Assembly (NCBI GenBank): GCA_016871535.1
Contig: VHCZ01000007.1
Span: 1 to 61,551, forward strand
DNA length: 61,551 bases
Source: Verrucomicrobiota bacterium
GTDB lineage: Bacteria; Verrucomicrobiota; Verrucomicrobiia; Limisphaerales; SIBE01
Direction: 5' to 3'
Position numbers and translations under genes: made by a program. The first letter of the stretch is position 1, and every line of letters starts with the position of its first letter. This document shows, one piece after another, positions 11,761 to 23,147 of the stretch. The notes beneath the pieces were generated by a model. That model was not told the DNA's origin and ran no database searches. It saw nothing but the letters and a program-made list of their open reading frames with translations.

Positions 11761-12429
11761 ATGTCCGATATTTTTCCAAAGTGGACAAATCAACTGCCGG
11801 CCAAGGTTTTATTCGGCGGGGCGCTGATCGGAGCCGCTACTATTGTCGGGGTCTGGTACTATTTCACTCCAAAATACACTCGCGTGGGCTATCAGCCCAT
11901 CCAGCCTGTGACCTTCTCCCACGCGGTTCATGTTGATCAATTGAAACTGGACTGCCGGTACTGCCACCATGCCGTGGAAAAATCGTGGTATTCGAATGTT
12001 CCCAGCTCCTCAACGTGCATGAACTGCCACAACCAGGTGCTGGCCAATGATCCCCGGCTGGCCATGGTCCGGGAAAGCGCTCAGACCGGGAAGTCGATCC
12101 CCTGGGTGCAGGTTCATAAGGTGCCGGATTACGTGTATTTCAATCATTCCGTTCACGTCCGGCGCGGGGTCAGTTGCGTGGAATGTCACGGCCAGATCAA
12201 CAAAATGGATGAGGTGTACCACGCCAAGCCGCTCAGCATGGCTTTTTGCCTGGAATGTCATCGCAACCCCGCCGAAAAATTGCGTCCTCTGGATAAGATC
12301 ACGGACCTGGATTGGAAGTGGAGTGACGACCCGAAAACCGCCGCGCAGATGCAGAAAACCAAAGGCGATCAATTCATGCACGATTGGGCCATCCAAACTT
12401 CGCAGAGTTGTTCCGCGTGCCACCGATGA
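11761..12429 (+). CDS. actA: Alternative complex III subunit ActA, pentahaem cytochrome c
   Basis: 222 residues. An N-terminal membrane anchor (about 17-35) is followed by five CxxCH haem sites: CRYCH, CMNCH, CVECH, CLECH and CSACH, the last at the C-terminus. This is the expected haem count for ActA. It passes electrons from the iron-sulfur/quinol-oxidising part of the complex towards cytochrome c on the periplasmic side. First gene of a ten-gene operon; its stop overlaps the actB start (ATGA). Confidence 0.95.
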   Translation: MSDIFPKWTNQLPAKVLFGGALIGAATIVGVWYYFTPKYTRVGYQPIQPVTFSHAVHVDQLKLDCRYCHHAVEKSWYSNVPSSSTCMNCHNQVLANDPRLAMVRESAQTGKSIPWVQVHKVPDYVYFNHSVHVRRGVSCVECHGQINKMDEVYHAKPLSMAFCLECHRNPAEKLRPLDKITDLDWKWSDDPKTAAQMQKTKGDQFMHDWAIQTSQSCSACHR

Positions 12430-15400
12430 AAACGATCCCTCCACCTTGTCCCGAGCCGGACGTGGGCCCAAAATACTGGCGCAGCCTGGACCAGTTGGCG
12501 GACACGCCCGAATTCCGGCAGTGGCTGGAACGGGAGTTTCCCGCCGGAGCCAGCGAATTCACGGACCCCGTTTCCCGCCGTTATTTCGTCAAGATCATGT
12601 CCGCGTCGTTCTTGTTCGGCGGACTCGGTTTGACGGGCTGCCGACGACCCGTGGAGAACATCGTGCCCTTCTCCAAAATGCCGGAGGGTTACATTCACGG
12701 CGTGGCTCAGTACTATGCAACCGCGTTCCCAACCCGATCCAGCGCGGTCCCGCTGCTGGTCAAATCCCACGAAGGCCGCCCCACGAAGATCGAAGGAAAC
12801 CCGGATCATCCCGACAGCAACGGCGGCACGGATCAATTCGCTCAGGCTTCGATTCTGAATCTTTACGACCCGGACCGCGCCACGCGCTTTACCCGCGATG
12901 GAAACGCCGAAACGCGCGAGAAAGCGTTGGAGGAATTAGGGCGAATTGCGGATCAGGCCAGGGCCAATGGGGGCCAGGGTCTGGCGTTTCTTCTGGAACG
13001 AAGCAGCTCGCCGTCACGCGCGCGGCTCCAGCAATTGATTTCCGCAAAGTATCCGAACGCCCGCTGGCACACTTACGAACCGGTCGATTTCGACGTCCAC
13101 CGCCAGGCGGCCTCACTGGCGTTTGGAAAGCCCGTGGCGCCTTACTTCAAACTGGACGAAGCGAACGTGATTGTCTCGCTGGACTGCGATTTCCTGGGCG
13201 CGGAGGAAGACACCTATGTGAACGTCCGGCGCTTCGCCAGCCGCCGAAACCCGGAAAAATCGGCCAAGCCAATGAACCGGCTATACGCGGTCGAAGGCCT
13301 GTTCACGCTCACCGGGGCCAATGCGGACCATCGGCTCCGCGTTCCGACGAGTGCCGTGCAAAGTTTCGCAGCGCGCCTGGCGCTGGAGATCTTCAAGCAA
13401 AAGGGAGGCGCCTCTAACGAATTGCAGGCCGGTCTGACGAAGCTTGCCGCCGGTTTTGCGGGGAATGACTCATGGATCGTTGAGTGCGCCAAAGATTTGC
13501 TGGCCGCTGGAAACGCCGGCCATACGGTCGTGCTGGCAGGGCATCGCCAGCCGCTGGCAACCCATCTGATCGCTCATGCCATCAACTCGGCTTTGGGGAA
13601 CGTCGGCACGACGGTTCTTCTGCACGATGCGCCCCCGCCGGTGGGCGGATCCATCTCCGATTTGGCTCAAGCGCTTAATGCCAGCCAAGTTACCACGCTC
13701 GTGATCCTCGGTGGCAATCCGGCCTACAACGCGCCAGTCGATTTGAATTGGGCGCAAGCACAGGCCAAAGCGGGCACGATTGTCCGGCTGGGCTATTACG
13801 AGGATGAAAGCTTTCCGACCAAAGGCTGGCACTTTCCAATGGCCCATTTCCTGGAGTCATGGGGTGACGCCCGCACCGCAGACGGAGCGCTGGTTCCAAT
13901 TCAGCCGTTGATCGAGCCGCTGTTTGGCGGCATAGGCGAACTCGAAGTTCTGGCGCGAATCGGCCGTCTGGAGAAGACCAACCCTTACGAAATCGTTCGC
14001 GAAACCTTCCGAGGGACCGCAGGTGAAGGCGAAAACGTTTGGCGGAAGTTCTTGCACGACGGATATCTGGCGGGGAGCGCTGCGAAACCGGTGAGCGGTC
14101 AACTCGATTCATCGGCCGTGACGCGCACTTTGCAGGCTGTTTCAGTTCCGGCCGCGCCGGGCCGGGACAGACTGGAGGTTGTGTTCCATCGCAGCTACAG
14201 CCTGGACGACGGTCGATTCAACAACAACGGCTGGCTCCAGGAGACCCCGGACCCCATTACGAAACTCACCTGGGACAATGCCATCCTGGTGAGCCCCAAA
14301 ACGGCCAGCGAACTGGGCGTCGGCGAGTTCGATGAAAAGTCTCGCGGGCCCGTGGTTCGCAAAGGTCTCTTCAAGAACCAGCTTGTCGAAGTCGATCTGA
14401 GCGGGAGAAAAATCCGAGGCCCGATCTGGATTCTCCCCGGACTCGCGGATTACACCGTGGGGTTGACGCTCGGTTATGGCCGGGAAAAGACCGGCCGCAT
14501 TGGACGACTTCATTCAGGCCAGCCCGCGGGCTACAACGCTTACAGATTGCGCCCGGCTGCCGGCGAGCATTTCGCGGCGGGCGGCAAGATTACGGCGACG
14601 CCGGAGATTTACGACTTGGCCGGCACGCAGGAGCACGGCGCGATGGAAGGCCGCCCGCTCATTCGCGAGGCAACGAAAAAGCAATTCGACGAGCATCCGA
14701 AGTTCGCCAAGAACATGGATCTCGAAGCGCCGGAGCACATGCAGCATATCGCCAAGGATCCCAAGACCGGCGAGCCGCTCATGATCTATAAACACCCTTA
14801 CCGGGTGTACGAGGAAGAAAAGCAAAAGGCCGGGGGCCGCCTCCGTGGACCGGCCGTGAAAAGCGACACGCATCAATGGGGCATGTCGATCGACCTGAGC
14901 AAGTGCGTCGGCTGCACCGCTTGCGCTGTGGCCTGCCAGAGCGAAAACAACATCCCCATTGTGGGCAAAGACCAGGTCATCAAAGGCCGCGAAATGGCGT
15001 GGCTGAGATTGGACCGGTATTTCGCGGGGAACATCGACGATCCGCAGATCGCTTATCAGCCGATTCTTTGCCAGCATTGCGAGAACGCGCCGTGCGAGAG
15101 CGTTTGCCCGGTCAACGCCACCGTTCACGACGAAGAAGGCCTGAACGTGATGGTCTATAACCGTTGCGTGGGCACGCGGTTTTGCTCGAACAACTGCCCG
15201 TACAAAGTTCGCCGCTTCAATTATTTTGACTACAACCGCCGGCCTCTCGACAAACTTTACCGAGACCCTTTCACCAGCTTCAATGAGGGCGAGTGGGAAC
15301 TAAAGCGCTGGTTCAAGGATCCTTCCCGGGGCAGCGTTCCGGACGATCAATGGGACTTGATGAAACTCGCCAAGAATCCGGAAGTCTCAGTGCGGATGCG

Positions 15401-15848
15401 CGGCGTCATGGAGAAATGCACCTTCTGCGTCCAGCGTATCGAACACGCCAAGGTCGAACAAAAGGTCAAGGCAGGAGATTCCGGAAACGTGCAGGTGCCG
15501 GACCGAACCATCAAAACGGCCTGCGAACAAGCGTGTCCGGCCGAAGCAATCGTTTTTGGCAATCTGGCCGACCCGAACAGCCGGGTCTCCCAGCTCAAAA
15601 AGCAGGATCGCGATTATGCAGTGCTCGGCTTCCTGGATACGCGCCCGCGCACGACGTACCTGGCGCGGATTCGCAATCCGAACCCGAACATGCCCGATCC
15701 TCACAAATACAGCGAGGCGCCCGGCATTCTGAAAGAGTACATGGACCGCAGCGGTTCGAACCCCATGGAAGCCCACGGCAAAGCTCATGGCGCCGGTGAA
15801 GGCACGCATACGCCCGCCGCGGCTTCGCACGAAAAAGGAGCGCACTAA
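12426..15848 (+). CDS. actB: Alternative complex III subunit ActB, molybdopterin-like plus iron-sulfur protein
   Basis: 1140 residues from the ATG at 12426. The N-terminus has a Tat-like motif with lipobox ([17 protein letters not shown] then LTGC, about 58-80). Residues about 80-800 are the molybdopterin-oxidoreductase-like half, which in ActB carries no metal. The C-terminal half is ferredoxin-like with four cluster motifs: [12 protein letters not shown] (near 827), [28 protein letters not shown] and [12 protein letters not shown]...CEQACP. These would hold three 4Fe-4S and one 3Fe-4S centres. Overlaps actC by one base (TAATG). Confidence 0.95.
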
Positions 15849-17278
15849 TGGCTGACGGCGCGATTCCCACTTCAATCAAAGTTCACGCTCCGCCGCCAGA
15901 ACTGGAGCGTCCGCCGCTGGTTCTCAATCAGCGAAACCTGGGGTGGATTTCCGACAAAGTCGCTTCGGTCGCGGAGGGAAAAACACCCCTCTGGTGGTGG
16001 ATCGCTTTCGTTCCGAGCAGTCTGATGCTCCTGATCGGAGTGATCTGCGTGACTTACCAGATTTCCACAGGTGTGGGCGTCTGGGGCTTGCACCATCCGG
16101 TCATGTGGGCGTGGGATATCACCAATTTCGTGTTCTGGATCGGCATCGGCCACGCCGGGACGCTCATTTCGGCGATCCTTTTCCTGCTCCGGCAACGCTG
16201 GCGGACTTCGATCAACCGCGCGGCGGAAGCCATGACGATTTTCGCGGTCATGTGCGCGGGCCTGTTTCCGTTGATTCACGTCGGGCGCGCCTGGCTTGAC
16301 TGGTGGATGCTGCCGTTCCCGAACTCCAACGGCCCGATCTGGCCGCAGTTCCGTTCGCCGTTGACATGGGATGTATTCGCGGTTTCCACCTATTTCACGG
16401 TTTCAGCGCTCTTCTGGTACATGGGGCTGATCCCAGACCTGGCCATTATGCGGGATCGAGCCCGGAGCAAAGTCCGGAAGTTTCTCTACGGTCTGTTCGC
16501 GCTGGGCTGGACCGGATCGAATCGCCACTGGAGCAATTACGAGAAGGCGTACCTGCTGCTCGCCGGTCTTTCCACCCCGCTGGTTTTGTCCGTCCACAGC
16601 ATTGTGTCCTTTGACTTCGCAGTCGCGCAGTTGCCCGGATGGCACACGACGATCTTCCCGCCTTACTTCGTGGCCGGGGCTGTCTTTTCTGGATTCGGGA
16701 TGGTGCTCACGCTGATGATTCCTTTGCGTTCGCTGTGTCATCTGGAGGAAGTGATCACGGTTCGGCACATTGATCTGATGTGCAAAGTCACGCTGGCGAC
16801 CGGTTCAATTGTTGGCTATGCCTATTCGACGGAGTTTTTCATCGCGTACTACGGAGGCAATCCTTACGAACTGGCGGCTTTCATTAATCGCGCGACCGGG
16901 CCGTATTGGTGGGCCTACTGGATCATGGTCACCTGCAATGTCGTTTTGCCTCAGCTTTTCTGGTTCAAGAAGATCCGGACCAACGTGATTGCCGTGTTCA
17001 TCCTTTCCATCACGGTGAACATCGGAATGTGGTTCGAGCGTTTCGTGATCATTGCCACGACCCTCGCGCGCGAGTTTATGCCTTCCAACTGGGGTTACTT
17101 CATTCCAACGTGGGTGGACATTTTCACGTTCGTCGGGACTTTCGGCCTGTTTCTGACTTTCTTCTTGCTGTTCGTGCGTTTCTTGCCGGTGCTGGCGATT
17201 TCCGAAGTCAAGGGCGTCACCCCGCAAGCAGACCCGCACCATCCGATGGGCGGCGCAAGAATTGGAGGGCACCACTGA
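15848..17278 (+). CDS. actC: Alternative complex III subunit ActC, NrfD-like quinol-binding membrane protein
   Basis: 476 residues with about ten membrane helices after a soluble N-terminal 50 residues. NrfD/PsrC-like wording is clear ([55 protein letters not shown]-type segment near 220-245). It is expected to contain the quinol-oxidising site next to the ActB clusters. Start and stop overlap both neighbours (TAATG and TGATG), consistent with translational coupling. Confidence 0.95.
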
Positions 17279-17817
17279 TGAGCAGCCCAGCCAGAGCCTA
17301 CGGCATCATCGCCGAGTTCGACACGCCGGCCGCGGCGATGCACGCGGCGGAAAAAGTGCGCGACCACGGATTCACCCGCTGGGACGTCTTCACGCCTTAT
17401 CCGGTGCATGGCATGGACAAGGCGATGGGGTTGCGCAATTCGCGAGTCGGCTGGTTCACCTTCATTGGGGGAGTGACCGGTTACATTACGGGCATGTTGA
17501 TGATCTGGTACATGAACGCTCACGACTACAACATCACGGTCGGCGGCAAGCCCATGTTCAGCCCGATTTATTCCTTCCCGCCCGCTTACGAACTGACGAT
17601 CCTGTTCGGCGCGTTTGGCTCGCTTTTCGGGATGCTGTTCCTCAATCGGCTGCCGAAGCTGTACCATCCGCTCCTGAAGACCCGGCGCTTTGTCTTCGTC
17701 ACGCACGACAAATTCTTCGTTGTGATCGAGTGCGACGACCCGAAGTACTCCGACACTGAAACCCGCAAGTTGCTGGAATCGGCCGGCAGCAAGCACCTCG
17801 AGGTCGCGGAGGAATAG
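17278..17817 (+). CDS. actD: Alternative complex III subunit ActD (DUF3341)
   Basis: 179 residues from the ATG overlapping the actC stop. A soluble N-terminus (AYGIIAEFDTPAAAMHAAEK, WDVFTPYPVHGMDKAMG) is followed by two membrane helices (about 60-82 and 100-122) and a soluble tail containing FFVVIECDDP. This is the DUF3341 architecture of ActD, a cofactor-free structural subunit. Confidence 0.93.
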   Translation: MSSPARAYGIIAEFDTPAAAMHAAEKVRDHGFTRWDVFTPYPVHGMDKAMGLRNSRVGWFTFIGGVTGYITGMLMIWYMNAHDYNITVGGKPMFSPIYSFPPAYELTILFGAFGSLFGMLFLNRLPKLYHPLLKTRRFVFVTHDKFFVVIECDDPKYSDTETRKLLESAGSKHLEVAEE

Positions 17818-18486
17818 ATGCGTTACTTTCTGCTCATGTTCGTGCTCGCAGGCGTGCTCGTGGTCGGAGTCGCCGGTTTTCGCGGCAGCACCTCGCGAAA
17901 ACCTCCGATCGAGGTGTTCCCGGACATGGACCGCCAGCCCAAGCTTCGTCCACAGGACCGCAACAGCTTTTTTGCTGACGGCCGAAGCTCCCGCTTGCCG
18001 GTCCAGGGGACGATTGCCCGCGCCGCGCCCTTTCAAGGCTTGATCAACGCCGACGCCAACAATCCCGTTTACCCGTTCCACGAGGATGCGCCGGTGAATT
18101 CCGGACTGATCGCGGGCACGACCAATTTTGTCGAGTCCATCCCCTTCCAAATCACGGAACGGCTCTTGGATCGTGGCCGTGACCTCTACCAGATCTACTG
18201 CTCGCCATGCCACGGGGCGACCGGCGACGGCAACGGCGTGATCAAGAAGATCGCCATGCCGACCGTGGCGAACCTTCATGACGCACGGATCATCCAGATG
18301 CCGGACGGCCAGATTTATTACGCGATCAAGAATGGAAGTCCGAGCCAGTTGATGGGACCTTACGCCGCGCAGGTCTCCGTCGAGGAACGATGGGCGATTG
18401 TGGCTTACGCGCGGGCGCTGCAAAGGAGCCGATTAGGCAGCCTCGAAGACGTGCCCGAATCGCTCCGGTCAACCTTAGCCAAATAG
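17818..18486 (+). CDS. actE: Alternative complex III subunit ActE, monohaem cytochrome c
   Basis: 222 residues starting directly after the actD stop. An N-terminal hydrophobic segment (MRYFLLMFVLAGVLVVGVAG) serves as anchor or lipoprotein-like signal, then one haem site in IYCSPCHGATGDGNG near residue 127 and a later Met-containing loop (ATPIMPTVAN-like region reads IAMPTVANLH). Class I cytochrome c fold; probably the exit or entry haem for soluble cytochrome c. Confidence 0.93.
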   Translation: MRYFLLMFVLAGVLVVGVAGFRGSTSRKPPIEVFPDMDRQPKLRPQDRNSFFADGRSSRLPVQGTIARAAPFQGLINADANNPVYPFHEDAPVNSGLIAGTTNFVESIPFQITERLLDRGRDLYQIYCSPCHGATGDGNGVIKKIAMPTVANLHDARIIQMPDGQIYYAIKNGSPSQLMGPYAAQVSVEERWAIVAYARALQRSRLGSLEDVPESLRSTLAK

Positions 18487-18556: not shown

Positions 18557-19774
18557 ATGAGTTCGCACACTGAGTCTGCCGCTCCCGGTTCGCTGGATTT
18601 GTCCCGATGGCGAAAACTGCCGACAATCCTGATGGCGGCCGGGGGCGGGCTGGCCCTGATTGGCCTGGCGATCGACCCGAAACAACTGGGCTATTCCTGG
18701 CTGCTGGCGTTCATGTTTTTCCTCAGCATCTGTCTGGGGTCGCTGTTCCTGGTGATCTTGCATCACCTGTTCGATGCCATGTGGACGGTGCCGTTAAGGC
18801 GTTTCGTCGAACACCTCGCCTGTCTCGCGCCCTGGATGCTCGCCCTCTTCATCCCCGTGTTGATTCTGGCGCCAAGAATCTATCCCTGGATGGACCCGGC
18901 CAATGCAGATCACGCGCTTCACGCCAAGCACGCTTATCTCAACGTGCCGATGTGGTATGCCCGTGTGGCAGTCTTGTTCGGCATCTGGATCTTCCTGACC
19001 CGCGGTTTGCGCAAATGGTCGTTGAAGCAGGATGAAACCGGCGCGGCCGAGTGCACCTTCCGGATGCGGCGCTACGCGGCGGCCGGAATCTTCCTCTTCG
19101 CGGTCACTCTAACGCTGGCGGCGATCGATTGGATGAAATCCTTGCAGCACCAATGGTTCTCCACGATGTACGGCGTGTATTACTTCGCGGCCAGTGTCTG
19201 GACGACGCTGGCGACCGTGTACGTCCTCCTGGTGGTGTTGAAACGAGCCGGGCCGTTGCGTCATGTCGTGCGCGAACGCCAGTTTCACGACACAGGCGTG
19301 CTTTGGTTTGCGTTCACCGTCTTCTATGCTTACGTCACTTTTTCCCAGTATTTTCTGATTTGGAACGCGGCTCTTCCGGAAGAGACCTTCTGGTACATTC
19401 AGCGCGAGCAAGGATCGTGGTGGGACATTGGTATGGTCATCATCTTCGGCCATTTTCTTCTGCCGTTTCTGACGCTCCTGCGCATCGACGCGAAACTGAA
19501 CCTGGCCGTGATGCTCCCGCTTTGCGTGTGGGCCTGGCTGATGCACTACTGTGATCTGTCCTACAACATCATGCCGGTGATACACCCCGGTGGCTTCCCG
19601 GGACAATGGATCTGGCTCGATGCCGCGTGTTTCGCGTTCATCGGCGGCGCCCTGGCCAAGTTGTTCATCCGGAGTTTCAACGCGCATCCGCCCTATCCGC
19701 AGCGTGATCCGCGCTTCGCCGAGACCATGGAAGTTTATGTGCCTCCGGCGGCCCAAAGCCGCGGCGCAAGGTAA
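18557..19774 (+). CDS. actF: Alternative complex III subunit ActF, NrfD-like membrane protein
   Basis: 405 residues from the ATG at 18557 with about ten hydrophobic helices (for example SWLLAFMFFLSICLGSLFLV and WMLALFIPVLILAPRIY). It is the second NrfD-family subunit normally paired with ActC and lacking cofactors. The 70-base gap after actE contains no other feature. Ends 41 bases before the small one-helix gene. Confidence 0.92.
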   Translation: MSSHTESAAPGSLDLSRWRKLPTILMAAGGGLALIGLAIDPKQLGYSWLLAFMFFLSICLGSLFLVILHHLFDAMWTVPLRRFVEHLACLAPWMLALFIPVLILAPRIYPWMDPANADHALHAKHAYLNVPMWYARVAVLFGIWIFLTRGLRKWSLKQDETGAAECTFRMRRYAAAGIFLFAVTLTLAAIDWMKSLQHQWFSTMYGVYYFAASVWTTLATVYVLLVVLKRAGPLRHVVRERQFHDTGVLWFAFTVFYAYVTFSQYFLIWNAALPEETFWYIQREQGSWWDIGMVIIFGHFLLPFLTLLRIDAKLNLAVMLPLCVWAWLMHYCDLSYNIMPVIHPGGFPGQWIWLDAACFAFIGGALAKLFIRSFNAHPPYPQRDPRFAETMEVYVPPAAQSRGAR

Positions 19775-19815: not shown

Positions 19816-20211
19816 ATGAATAGCGAATCGTGTTGCGGGGATAAGGCCAGAATCGGCGCGTATTGCGTCGGCATCCTCGGCTCGTTCCTGGTCATGGCGG
19901 GCATTGTCTGGCTAATGCGCCAGTACACGCAACCGCCGCCCGTGGATGGCAAGCGCATCGAAGAACGGCGCAAGGCCGCGGCTGAGGCAAATCTGGCTGT
20001 GAAAGAGCTTGAAACCTACGGCTACATCGACGCGACCAAGGGACAAGTGCGTTTGCCGGTTGTGGAAAATGATGGCCAGAAGCTCAAGTTGGGGCGGGCT
20101 GCGCAATTGACCCTCCAGGAGTGGAAAGACCCGGCCGCCGGGCGGTCCAACCTGATTGCGCGCTGGAACAAGTTCAATCCGCCTCCGAAACCGCCGCCAA
20201 GCTTCGAGTAA
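19816..20211 (+). CDS. Small one-helix protein of the complex III cluster
   Basis: 131 residues: a Cys-containing N-terminus (MNSESCCGDKAR), one membrane helix (about 13-33, IGAYCVGILGSFLVMAGIVW), and a periplasmic part with helical KRIEERRKAAAEANLAVKEL and then LETYGYIDATKGQVRLPV. The last segment resembles the YGW.D...G..RIP motif of small proteins encoded between actF and oxidase genes in other bacteria. It may be an assembly factor or a one-helix subunit comparable in position and topology to ActG; this is inference from position. Confidence 0.65.
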   Translation: MNSESCCGDKARIGAYCVGILGSFLVMAGIVWLMRQYTQPPPVDGKRIEERRKAAAEANLAVKELETYGYIDATKGQVRLPVVENDGQKLKLGRAAQLTLQEWKDPAAGRSNLIARWNKFNPPPKPPPSFE

Positions 20212-20221
20212 TCCAAAGTCA

Positions 20222-21763
20222 ATGATGAGCGTTCAAGCGCCAGCCACGGAGAGCGTTTCCAGGACTCAGGCTGCCGTCCCGCCGATGGAGATTAACCGAT
20301 CGAGTTGCCTCCCGGTCACGATGCTCCTGGCGTCCAGCGTCGGCTGGCTGGTTGTCGCCAGCGTCCTCGGACTCGTCAGCGCCATCAAACTGCACGCGCC
20401 GGGTTTCCCGGGTTTTCTTTCCGGCGCATCCTGGCTGACCTACGGCCGCGTCTATCCAGCTTATTCATTCGTGCTGATTTATGGATTTGCCGCGCTGGCG
20501 GGCCTGGGCCTTGGACTCTGGATACTCGCCCGACTGAGCCGCGCTGCGGTTTTCGGCCCGGTCGCAACCACGATCGCTGGTCTGTTCTGGAATCTTGGCG
20601 TTCTTGTCGGCACCCTGGGAATCCTCGCGGGCGCGGGAAGCGGCTATGAAGGCCTGGAAGTGCCGGGGTTCGCGTCGCCGATTCTCCTGGCTGCGTATCT
20701 GGCGATCGCACTCTGCGCGACGCTCACGTTTCATTTCCGCTCGGAGCGCGAGATGTATGTTTCGCAGTGGTATTTGCTGATGGCGTTGTTCTGGTTTCCG
20801 TGGATTTTTTCAACGGCGGAGATGCTGCTGGTTTACTTTCCGTCTCGGGGCGTGGCGCAGGCTGTGATCGCGGGCTGGTTCACGCACAACCTGTATTGGA
20901 TTTGGCTGGCCTCATTCGGGCTGGCCGCGATCTTCTACTTTTTGCCCAAGCTGGCGGGCCGGCCCTTGCACAGCCGCGGTCTGGCGATGTTCGGATTTTG
21001 GTCGCTGGCATGTTTCGGCGGTTGGGGCGGAGTTCAGGGAGGCACACCCGTGCCAAGCTGGCTGGCCAGTGTGAGCGGCGCGGCGGGTATCATGATGCTC
21101 GTGCCCCTTTTAGCCGTTGCCACAAACTGGCACCTGACGATGAAGGGAACGGATCAAAAGCTGGGGCCAAATCCAATTCTGCCTTTCTTCAAGTTCGGCG
21201 CCTTTTGTTTCATCGTCGCCAGCCTGCTGCAGATCATCAGCCTGCTTCGCGCGCCGTCCAGCGTGTCCGCCCACCACCAGGACCTCTCCGAAACGATTCA
21301 ATCGACCTTCGCTGTCGTATTCGGCTTGCTGGGACAGATCGCGGAAGTTGCCCGATTCACGCATTACGGAAATGGCGTGAGCTCACTGTTCCTGTTCGGC
21401 TTTTTCGTGATGGTTGCGGTGGGCGGCATTTATTACGTCGTTCCCAGGCTTACCCAATGCGAATGGCCGGCTCCGGCGCTTATGAAATTTCATTTTCGTT
21501 GCGGCGCCGCCGGGGCGGCGTTTCTGGGCGCTTCGTTGATCATTGGCGGCATCCGGCAAGGCGCGGCCATGAATAATCCAAACCTTGCGTTCCTGGATAC
21601 AGTGCGCGGCACCGTGCCGTTCCTCGGCATGGGCACTCTGGGAATGCTCCTGCTCCTGGTGGGGAACTGCGCCCTGGCAATCAACTTCGCGCGGCTCCTC
21701 ATGAACTGCCGGTGTTCCGAGTGCTGCCCGTCCCCAATCACGAGTCCCGGAGGGCGCGCATGA
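20222..21763 (+). CDS. CcoN-like (cbb3 oxidase subunit I) homologue lacking most metal ligands
   Basis: 513 residues, about twelve membrane helices. The backbone matches CcoN: YGRVYPAYSF in helix 2, GWFTHNLYWIWLASFG, AIFYFLPKLAGRPLHS, GGIYYVVPRL. By my alignment the low-spin haem b His of helix 2 (normally RPLHT) is Tyr, the paired CuB histidines after helix 7 (GPHH) read GGVQGG, and the HVH pair for haems b3 and b has no His. Only the His of FTHN, one CuB ligand, remains. It is therefore unlikely to reduce oxygen. It is flanked by intact act and cytochrome genes and overlaps the ccoO-like start, so it is probably expressed as a structural or quinone-binding subunit. Confidence 0.8.
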   Translation: MMSVQAPATESVSRTQAAVPPMEINRSSCLPVTMLLASSVGWLVVASVLGLVSAIKLHAPGFPGFLSGASWLTYGRVYPAYSFVLIYGFAALAGLGLGLWILARLSRAAVFGPVATTIAGLFWNLGVLVGTLGILAGAGSGYEGLEVPGFASPILLAAYLAIALCATLTFHFRSEREMYVSQWYLLMALFWFPWIFSTAEMLLVYFPSRGVAQAVIAGWFTHNLYWIWLASFGLAAIFYFLPKLAGRPLHSRGLAMFGFWSLACFGGWGGVQGGTPVPSWLASVSGAAGIMMLVPLLAVATNWHLTMKGTDQKLGPNPILPFFKFGAFCFIVASLLQIISLLRAPSSVSAHHQDLSETIQSTFAVVFGLLGQIAEVARFTHYGNGVSSLFLFGFFVMVAVGGIYYVVPRLTQCEWPAPALMKFHFRCGAAGAAFLGASLIIGGIRQGAAMNNPNLAFLDTVRGTVPFLGMGTLGMLLLLVGNCALAINFARLLMNCRCSECCPSPITSPGGRA

Positions 21764-22473
21764 ATCAAGGCCCGATCATTTTTCTCGGCGTTTATCTGGC
21801 GATGGCGCTGTCCTGGCTGGGAATGGTGTTTGTCCCGGAAATGCAGCTTGGGCGCATGCAGGAGACGACCGTTCCTCCCGCGGGTGCGCGCTATCCTGCG
21901 CCGCGAAACGGCCTGGCTCAGGAAGGCCGTGACGTCTATCGCGCAAACGGGTGCTACTATTGCCACACACAACAAGTCCGCGCGCGGGGCTTCGGCGCGG
22001 ATTTTGAGCGCGGCTGGGGCGCGCGCCACAGCGTGGCGCCGGACTACTTGTATGATCGCCCTGTGATGCTAGGGAACCTGCGCGTGGGGCCGGACCTGGC
22101 CAACATCGGCGTCCGCCAGCCGGATGCCGCAACGCATTTGCTGCACCTTTACAACCCGCAGATCACGGCCAAAGGTTCGACGATGCCGCCCTACAAATTC
22201 CTGTTCGAGAAACGGAAAATCAGCGGCTCGCCGTCACCAGAAGCCTTGAAACTCTCCGGCGAATTTGCCCCGGAGCCTGGATTCGAAGTCGTGCCGAAAC
22301 CCGAAGCCCTCGCGCTCGTAGCTTACCTGCAAAGCCTGCGCGCCGACGTTCCACTTTTTGAAGCTCCTTTGCCGTTGCCTGGGAAGAAGCCTGGCGCTTC
22401 CAGCACGAACCAGCCTCCAGCGGGAGCCACGAACGCAAATCCAGCTCCGGCGGGCCAGCCTCAAGCGAAATGA
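21760..22473 (+). CDS. CcoO-like membrane-anchored monohaem cytochrome c
   Basis: 237 residues. An N-terminal helix (IIFLGVYLAMALSWLGMVFV) leads into the CcoO signature EGRDVYRANGCYYCHTQQVR, later YDRPVMLGNLRVGPDLANIG, HLYNP and the haem-iron Met in KGSTMPPYKFL. C-terminus is a Pro/Ala/Asn-rich tail of about 40 residues. Overlaps both neighbours by four bases (ATGA). In a real cbb3 oxidase CcoO feeds CcoN; here the partner has lost its ligands, so the protein may instead relay electrons from complex III to another acceptor. Confidence 0.85.
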   Translation: MNQGPIIFLGVYLAMALSWLGMVFVPEMQLGRMQETTVPPAGARYPAPRNGLAQEGRDVYRANGCYYCHTQQVRARGFGADFERGWGARHSVAPDYLYDRPVMLGNLRVGPDLANIGVRQPDAATHLLHLYNPQITAKGSTMPPYKFLFEKRKISGSPSPEALKLSGEFAPEPGFEVVPKPEALALVAYLQSLRADVPLFEAPLPLPGKKPGASSTNQPPAGATNANPAPAGQPQAK

Positions 22474-23147
22474 ATTCAGATCGGAAACACAGTTCGCCGA
22501 ATGCCCCATCGAAGGGCGGAGCTTCATCCGGCAGCGGCTTGAACCAGCCGCTGGTCGAAACCGAACCAACCGCTGGGCACGCGGAGTCTCCCGTCTGGCT
22601 GGTGGTGCTGCTGGGCGTTTTGCTTTTCTGGGCGCAGTTGTACATCGAAAACTATGCTGGCGGATTCAATCCTCAGGTGTACGAGCCTTACCGAACTTAC
22701 GCTCAGGTCGAGCAGGCGAATCCCAAGGATGAGGCAGGAGAACTGATTGCCAAGGGAGAAGTTCTCTATACCCAACTCTGTGTCGCTTGCCATCAAGGGA
22801 ACGGGATGGGGAGTCCCGGTCAATTCCCTCCTTTGGCGGGGTCTGAGTGGGTCATCGGGAGCCCGGACCGGCTTATCCGAATCGTGCTTCATGGACCGAC
22901 CGGCCCTTTCAAAGTGAAAGGCGTGGATTGGAATCCTGCAACAGCCATGGTGCCTTTTGGCTCCGCGTTCCCTCCGGACCAAGTCGATGCCAACATCGCC
23001 GCCATTCTAACCTTCATCCGCCAGTCCTGGGGGAATAAGGCGCCGCCCATCAAACTGGAAGATGTGAAACGCGTCCGCGAGGAAACCAAAGATCGCGCCG
23101 CGCCGTGGACCATGGACGAACTGCTGAAGATTCCGGAGACGCAGTAG
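22470..23147 (+). CDS. Membrane-anchored monohaem cytochrome c (CcoP-like position)
   Basis: 225 residues. A polar 45-residue N-terminus, one helix (about 46-65, VWLVVLLGVLLFWAQLYIE), then one class I haem domain with YTQLCVACHQGNGMGSPGQF near residues 100-120, MVPFG as the likely Met ligand and a C-terminal helix IAAILTFIRQSWGNKA. CcoP normally has two haems; this has one. Last gene of the respiratory operon; convergent with the glycosyltransferase. Confidence 0.85.
   Translation: MNSDRKHSSPNAPSKGGASSGSGLNQPLVETEPTAGHAESPVWLVVLLGVLLFWAQLYIENYAGGFNPQVYEPYRTYAQVEQANPKDEAGELIAKGEVLYTQLCVACHQGNGMGSPGQFPPLAGSEWVIGSPDRLIRIVLHGPTGPFKVKGVDWNPATAMVPFGSAFPPDQVDANIAAILTFIRQSWGNKAPPIKLEDVKRVREETKDRAAPWTMDELLKIPETQ

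Follow-up and report, generated by a model that had tools for sequence, protein, structure and literature searches.

The gene at 20222–21763 on the forward strand of the window, by which we mean the whole stretch of 61,551 nucleotides, raises the question of what a homologue of the oxidase subunit CcoN does within an alternative complex III (ACIII) operon when most of its cofactor ligands appear to be missing. The reading frame is intact and open for 513 residues. Its product scores 112.3 bits against the Pfam COX1 profile (PF00115; cut-off 34.8), which places it in the COX1 superfamily, and 112 bits against the ccoN equivalog TIGR00780, whose cut-off of 583 leaves it outside that group. The closest solved structure is the CcoN of P. 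stutzeri (3mk7, E 4e-19), so that the CcoN homology proposed in an earlier, sequence-only reading is borne out. AlphaFold2 gave low-confidence models (pLDDT 51.8 for the protein alone and 38.3 with one relative), which were too poor for comparison; a CcoN fold is predicted from the sequence homology.

The ligand positions were read by alignment and are numbered as in the 3mk7 chain, the cofactor of each histidine being what we take it to be from general knowledge of the cbb3 structure. Tyr81 (20462–20464) occupies the position of the haem b ligand H60, and Val386 and Ser388 (21377–21385) those of the haem b3/b pair, H345 and H347. The segment from Gly266 to Gln272 (21017–21037) covers the active-site Tyr251, replaced by Gly266, and the CuB ligand H257, replaced by Gln272, after which a two-residue deletion takes H258. 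Only His222 (20885–20887), equivalent to the CuB ligand H207, is kept, which leaves one of the six C-family histidines. The substitutions are those that had been read from the sequence: Tyr for the haem b histidine, loss of the CuB pair and of the HVH pair, and survival of the CuB histidine in FTHN, yet of the 81 ligand-free relatives only 16 have this last residue, which is thus not conserved. The alignment places no substitute histidine at the haem or CuB sites. It is therefore confirmed, at the level of alignment, that the protein is a full-length CcoN homologue without the ligand sets of haem b, haem b3 and CuB.

The gene lies on the same strand as, and downstream of, actABCDEF in order. 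These genes encode ActA, a multihaem cytochrome c (11761–12429), the iron–sulphur subunit ActB (12426–15848; assigned by synteny and homology among loci), ActC, an NrfD-like quinol subunit (15848–17278), ActD (17275–17817), the monohaem cytochrome c ActE (17818–18486) and ActF (18557–19774), the start codons of ActD and ActF being uncertain. Downstream, a CcoO-like monohaem cytochrome c (21760–22473; FixO 96 bits) and a further monohaem cytochrome c with a Cytochrome_CBB3 domain (22470–23147) both contain CXXCH, and the ccoN stop overlaps the ccoO start by four bases (ATGA, 21760–21763), as described before. The location between actABCDEF and the CcoO-like and cytochrome c genes also stands, except that an ORF of 131 codons (19816–20211) intervenes after actF. 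This ORF, which from its sequence appears to have one membrane helix near the N terminus, had no match in Pfam and NCBIfam searches; it is conserved in most loci, beside ccoN genes with and without ligands, and is a candidate unnamed ACIII-linked subunit.

A first search of 58 related genomes gave matches in 54, part of them ordinary fused CcoNO genes, and the DNA around the best matches was fetched for reading the gene order; one relative (L004) came from a search of genome contigs. Drawing more widely, on 241 genomes of the phylum, brought in more families of the class. In the first set, actABCDEF, the 131-residue ORF, ccoN, ccoO and the cytochrome c gene follow one another in nearly every locus uncut by a contig end, and the same order recurs in the further families, where the ORF was not detected in every locus. 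Within the window's order, about 50 genera have the gene in this slot, as do other families of the class. In the final set of 102 ACIII-linked CcoN proteins, counted on a MAFFT alignment including 3mk7, two kinds were found: 21 have all six histidines and the active-site tyrosine, and 81 have zero to three histidines and never the tyrosine (none in 35, one in 37, two in 7 and three in 2), these alignment-based calls being less sure on the very long branches (f54, L071 and L070) than in the window's family. No protein among the 102 has four or five ligand histidines, and the CuB triad is kept in none of the 81. The family therefore does not normally carry a different ligand set; it has either the canonical one or a remnant of it. 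Because 81 loci with the same gene order show it, the loss of ligands is confirmed not to be a chance event of one genome. The finding is wider than that first described, since ligand-complete versions share the identical operon slot and an aa3 oxidase follows in some families.

Ligand-complete copies occupy the slot both in the window's own order (L041 and L047) and in other families (18 copies), and three ligand-complete proteins of the window's order are 40–42% identical to the window protein. These proteins (L041, L047, L137–L140 and others) are cbb3-like, with GGP replacing TAL after the HH pair, and look little described themselves. One bin (G046) carries both kinds of ACIII-linked ccoN, on contigs C548 and C174 (L042 and L083). 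Two proteins (L142, 8673–10172, and L143, 1270–2778) keep H60 and H347, the haem b pair, without the b3 and CuB ligands, and are a possible halfway form with a low-spin haem only. Outside the ACIII operon, a divergent COX1 homologue was seen (L081, 5884–7506, and L080, 3–1034), in which ligands are present and the motifs are SMYIHD and HHYLFSP or HHYLLSP.

The ancestor was probably an ACIII-linked oxidase of cbb3 type with all its ligands; since these ligands have homologues in working oxidases, the change was one of loss and not of gain. The history was followed on a CcoN tree built with the ligand columns removed and on a tree of ActB, ActC, ActE and ActF from the same operons, all trees being quick searches. 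The Act tree has nine changes between the two kinds, eight of them forced, and the Act data for a 45-row subset (six changes) rejected placing the ligand-free rows on one side (p-AU 3e-5) as well as placing the ligand-free rows of family f55 in one clade (3e-40). Only three changes, two of them forced by well-supported branches, are needed on the CcoN tree. This difference, together with the bin that holds one copy of each kind, would fit a history of few old losses followed by swaps of ccoN between the kinds, which would account for the scatter instead of many losses in place. We regard that history as rather unlikely, since the CcoN data themselves reject a single ligand-free clade (p-AU 0.02) and are compatible with f55, both kinds included, as one clade (p-AU 0.43). 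In addition, the ligand-free branches of the CcoN tree are longer than the ligand-complete ones; they would attract each other and may distort that tree, and both trees place L148 within a clade of ligand-complete proteins. We take repeated loss in place as the simpler explanation; the ligands were probably lost several times, the number of losses resting mainly on the Act trees.

The ligand-free gene is under purifying selection. Pairwise dN/dS is about 0.03–0.29 for ligand-free ccoN, varying with pair and method, and 0.01–0.14 for ligand-complete ccoN, which is lower; both are well under 1, several of the pairs being saturated at silent sites. In the alignment, 43 CcoN columns are conserved in both kinds. 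Another 75, all six ligands among them, are fixed in ligand-complete proteins but lost from ligand-free ones, which have gained only 11 conserved columns of their own. The neighbouring CcoO contains CXXCH in every one of the 81 ligand-free loci, and many CcoO residues are conserved at 98–99%, against histidine in only 2–20% at the CcoN ligand columns. An electron relay that is kept beside an oxidase core that is lost is the pattern predicted for a scaffold, and the reading we favour, with a probability of about 0.6, is that the window protein is a catalytically dead, cofactor-free CcoN turned into a structural membrane subunit of an ACIII assembly, in a c-haem relay to aa3. Of the redox-silent subunit first proposed, the structural role beside complex III and CcoO thus agrees with the synteny, the purifying selection, the retained CcoO haem motif and the lost ligands; the part in quinone binding or proton movement found no evidence.

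Such a part, in which the ligand-free CcoN would go beyond a scaffold and bind quinone or translocate protons coupled to ACIII, could draw on the polar or charged residues among the 43 common columns (R76, R104, N124, E146, N302 and Q446). We consider it improbable: the active-site Tyr251 is absent from all 81 proteins, the 75 columns of the ligand-complete kind are lost, and a new common function would predict more than 11 newly conserved columns. More unlikely still is that a haem or metal is bound by non-canonical ligands (Met, Lys, Tyr or other His) and that the protein is still redox-active. The tyrosine at the haem b position of the window protein and its retained histidine at H207 would allow this, as would the H60 and H347 of L142 and L143, which could bind a low-spin haem. 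Against it, the residues at the ligand positions of the ligand-free set show no constraint (A, S, Q, Y, F, G, R), and no alternative histidine column is conserved in the ligand-free alignment as a replacement; the most retained ones, at residues 58 (65%) and 424 (73%) of the window protein, align off the haem sites. That the gene is decaying in the window's genome, a pseudogene in the making, is hardly credible in spite of the longer ligand-free branches, and was dropped given the dN/dS values and the survey, which by itself contradicts it with intact frames in about 80 genomes and a fixed place in the operon.

In line with the scaffold reading, nearly every genome with the ligand-free form has another oxidase. 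Among the genomes of this kind covered by a PF00115 search, all but five (G019, G021, G022, G047 and G053) have another COX1 of at least 350 bits; full-length CydA (539–557 bits) is present in G019, G022 and G047, a COX1 fragment lies at a contig edge in G021, and G053 (82% complete) has a CydA-like fragment, several of the genomes surveyed being incomplete metagenome bins in which failure to find an oxidase says little. Besides the ACIII-linked CcoN, the window's genome encodes a single haem-copper oxidase, of aa3 type, in an operon on contig 10 (SCO1, COX2 with a CuA-type motif, COX3, COX1, a UbiA-family protein (CtaB) and CtaA); it has no cytochrome bd. In the compact ligand-complete genomes G058 and G203 (98–99% complete), neither a further PF00115 protein nor cytochrome bd is present, and the ligand-complete form is therefore the only oxidase candidate seen there.

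Gene linkage was seen between ACIII and oxidase genes. In families f53, f54 and f58, aa3 COX1-COX3-COX2 lie on the same strand directly downstream of the ccoN-ccoO-cytochrome c trio, and their COX1 is 60–64% identical to the aa3 COX1 of the window's genome; this linkage is confined to one part of the tree and therefore counts as one or two events. In the window's order, the aa3 genes are not adjacent to the ACIII cluster. In four of the five loci read from other classes of the phylum, COX2-COX1-COX3 come directly after ACIII and the trio is missing; a contig end truncates the fifth. The pmoA-bearing genome G065 has COX3 and COX2 after ACIII, again with no trio. CcoN, CcoO and the cytochrome c are absent together in the other-class loci, so the trio behaves as one module.

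Under the scaffold reading, menaquinol would be oxidised by ActABCDEF and the electrons would pass from the c-haems of ActA and ActE to those of the CcoO-like protein and of the last cytochrome c. The dead CcoN, presumably without bound cofactor, would serve as a membrane base that helps to hold these two proteins. The module would thus supply a pair of c-haems where electrons leave ACIII, and would pass these electrons to aa3 or another acceptor; in the window's genome they would reach the CuA of the separate A-family (aa3) oxidase of the contig 10 operon and would not enter CcoN. Loss of the ligands would have taken place, probably on several occasions, where a lineage possessed a further oxidase.

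The ACIII genes of verrucomicrobial methanotrophs are described as adjoining a cbb3-type oxidase, and a C-type oxidase with ACIII was reported only for these methanotrophs and the Opitutaceae (PMC8498564); a cbb3-type oxidase is also counted in PMC6688271, PMC11102522 and PMC10205796. Four genomes with PmoA (G209, G111, G129 and G099), probably verrucomicrobial methanotrophs and likely identical with published strains, each have only one CcoN-like gene at E 1e-30. It is a ligand-free CcoN beside ACIII, followed by aa3 genes (L135, L136, L191 and L192), and its six ligand positions read SESHFV in L135 and L136, with the same motifs in the L191 and L192 sequences. Gene expression values for the methanotrophs were not found in PMC3404531 and PMC10205796. 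No paper noting the missing ligands was found in the openly readable literature.

Few redox proteins are as conserved as the catalytic subunit of haem-copper oxidases, and a widespread, selected version without ligands would be a respiratory pseudoenzyme, of a kind for which we found no description in the literature searched, either as an inactive CcoN or as a pseudoenzyme oxidase. Here, selection maintains an apparently cofactor-free CcoN within one and the same respiratory operon throughout much of a bacterial class, which suggests a function for this fold other than catalysis, and complete proteins, proteins with the haem b pair only and proteins with none offer a natural series for how an oxidase is taken apart. 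Annotation as ccoN alone is then an unsafe predictor of high-affinity oxygen respiration, apparently also in cultured methanotrophs. We see an even balance for the broader proposal that, in Verrucomicrobiota, an oxygen reductase of cbb3 type coupled to ACIII lost its cofactors repeatedly and independently and came to serve as a cofactor-free scaffold for the c-haem relay leading from ACIII to aa3, so that much of the annotated ACIII-adjacent cbb3 oxidase of the phylum would be unable to reduce oxygen.

Compared with the cbb3 CcoN of P. stutzeri (3mk7; TIGR00780), the window protein is homologous over about its whole length and likewise has a CcoO-like gene next to it, but it lacks five of the six ligands of haem b, haem b3 and CuB and the active-site tyrosine. 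The ACIII-adjacent cbb3-type oxidase of methanotrophs and Opitutaceae (PMC8498564, PMC6688271, PMC11102522) occupies the same operon slot and very probably belongs to the same gene family; the papers list it as an oxidase, whereas the copies in the four pmoA-bearing genomes are ligand-free. ACIII–oxidase supercomplexes with direct electron transfer are known from Rhodothermus marinus and Flavobacterium johnsoniae (PMC5928083), with caa3 or aa3 as the oxidase and, in R. marinus, with oxidase genes downstream of the ACIII cluster as in the loci described here, but no CcoN/CcoO module between ACIII and the oxidase is described there. Within ACIII itself, the NrfD-like ActC and ActF, and ActD, already provide examples of membrane subunits that carry no redox cofactor, although they belong to other protein families and are not derived from an oxidase (general knowledge; PMC8076601, PMC8552683).
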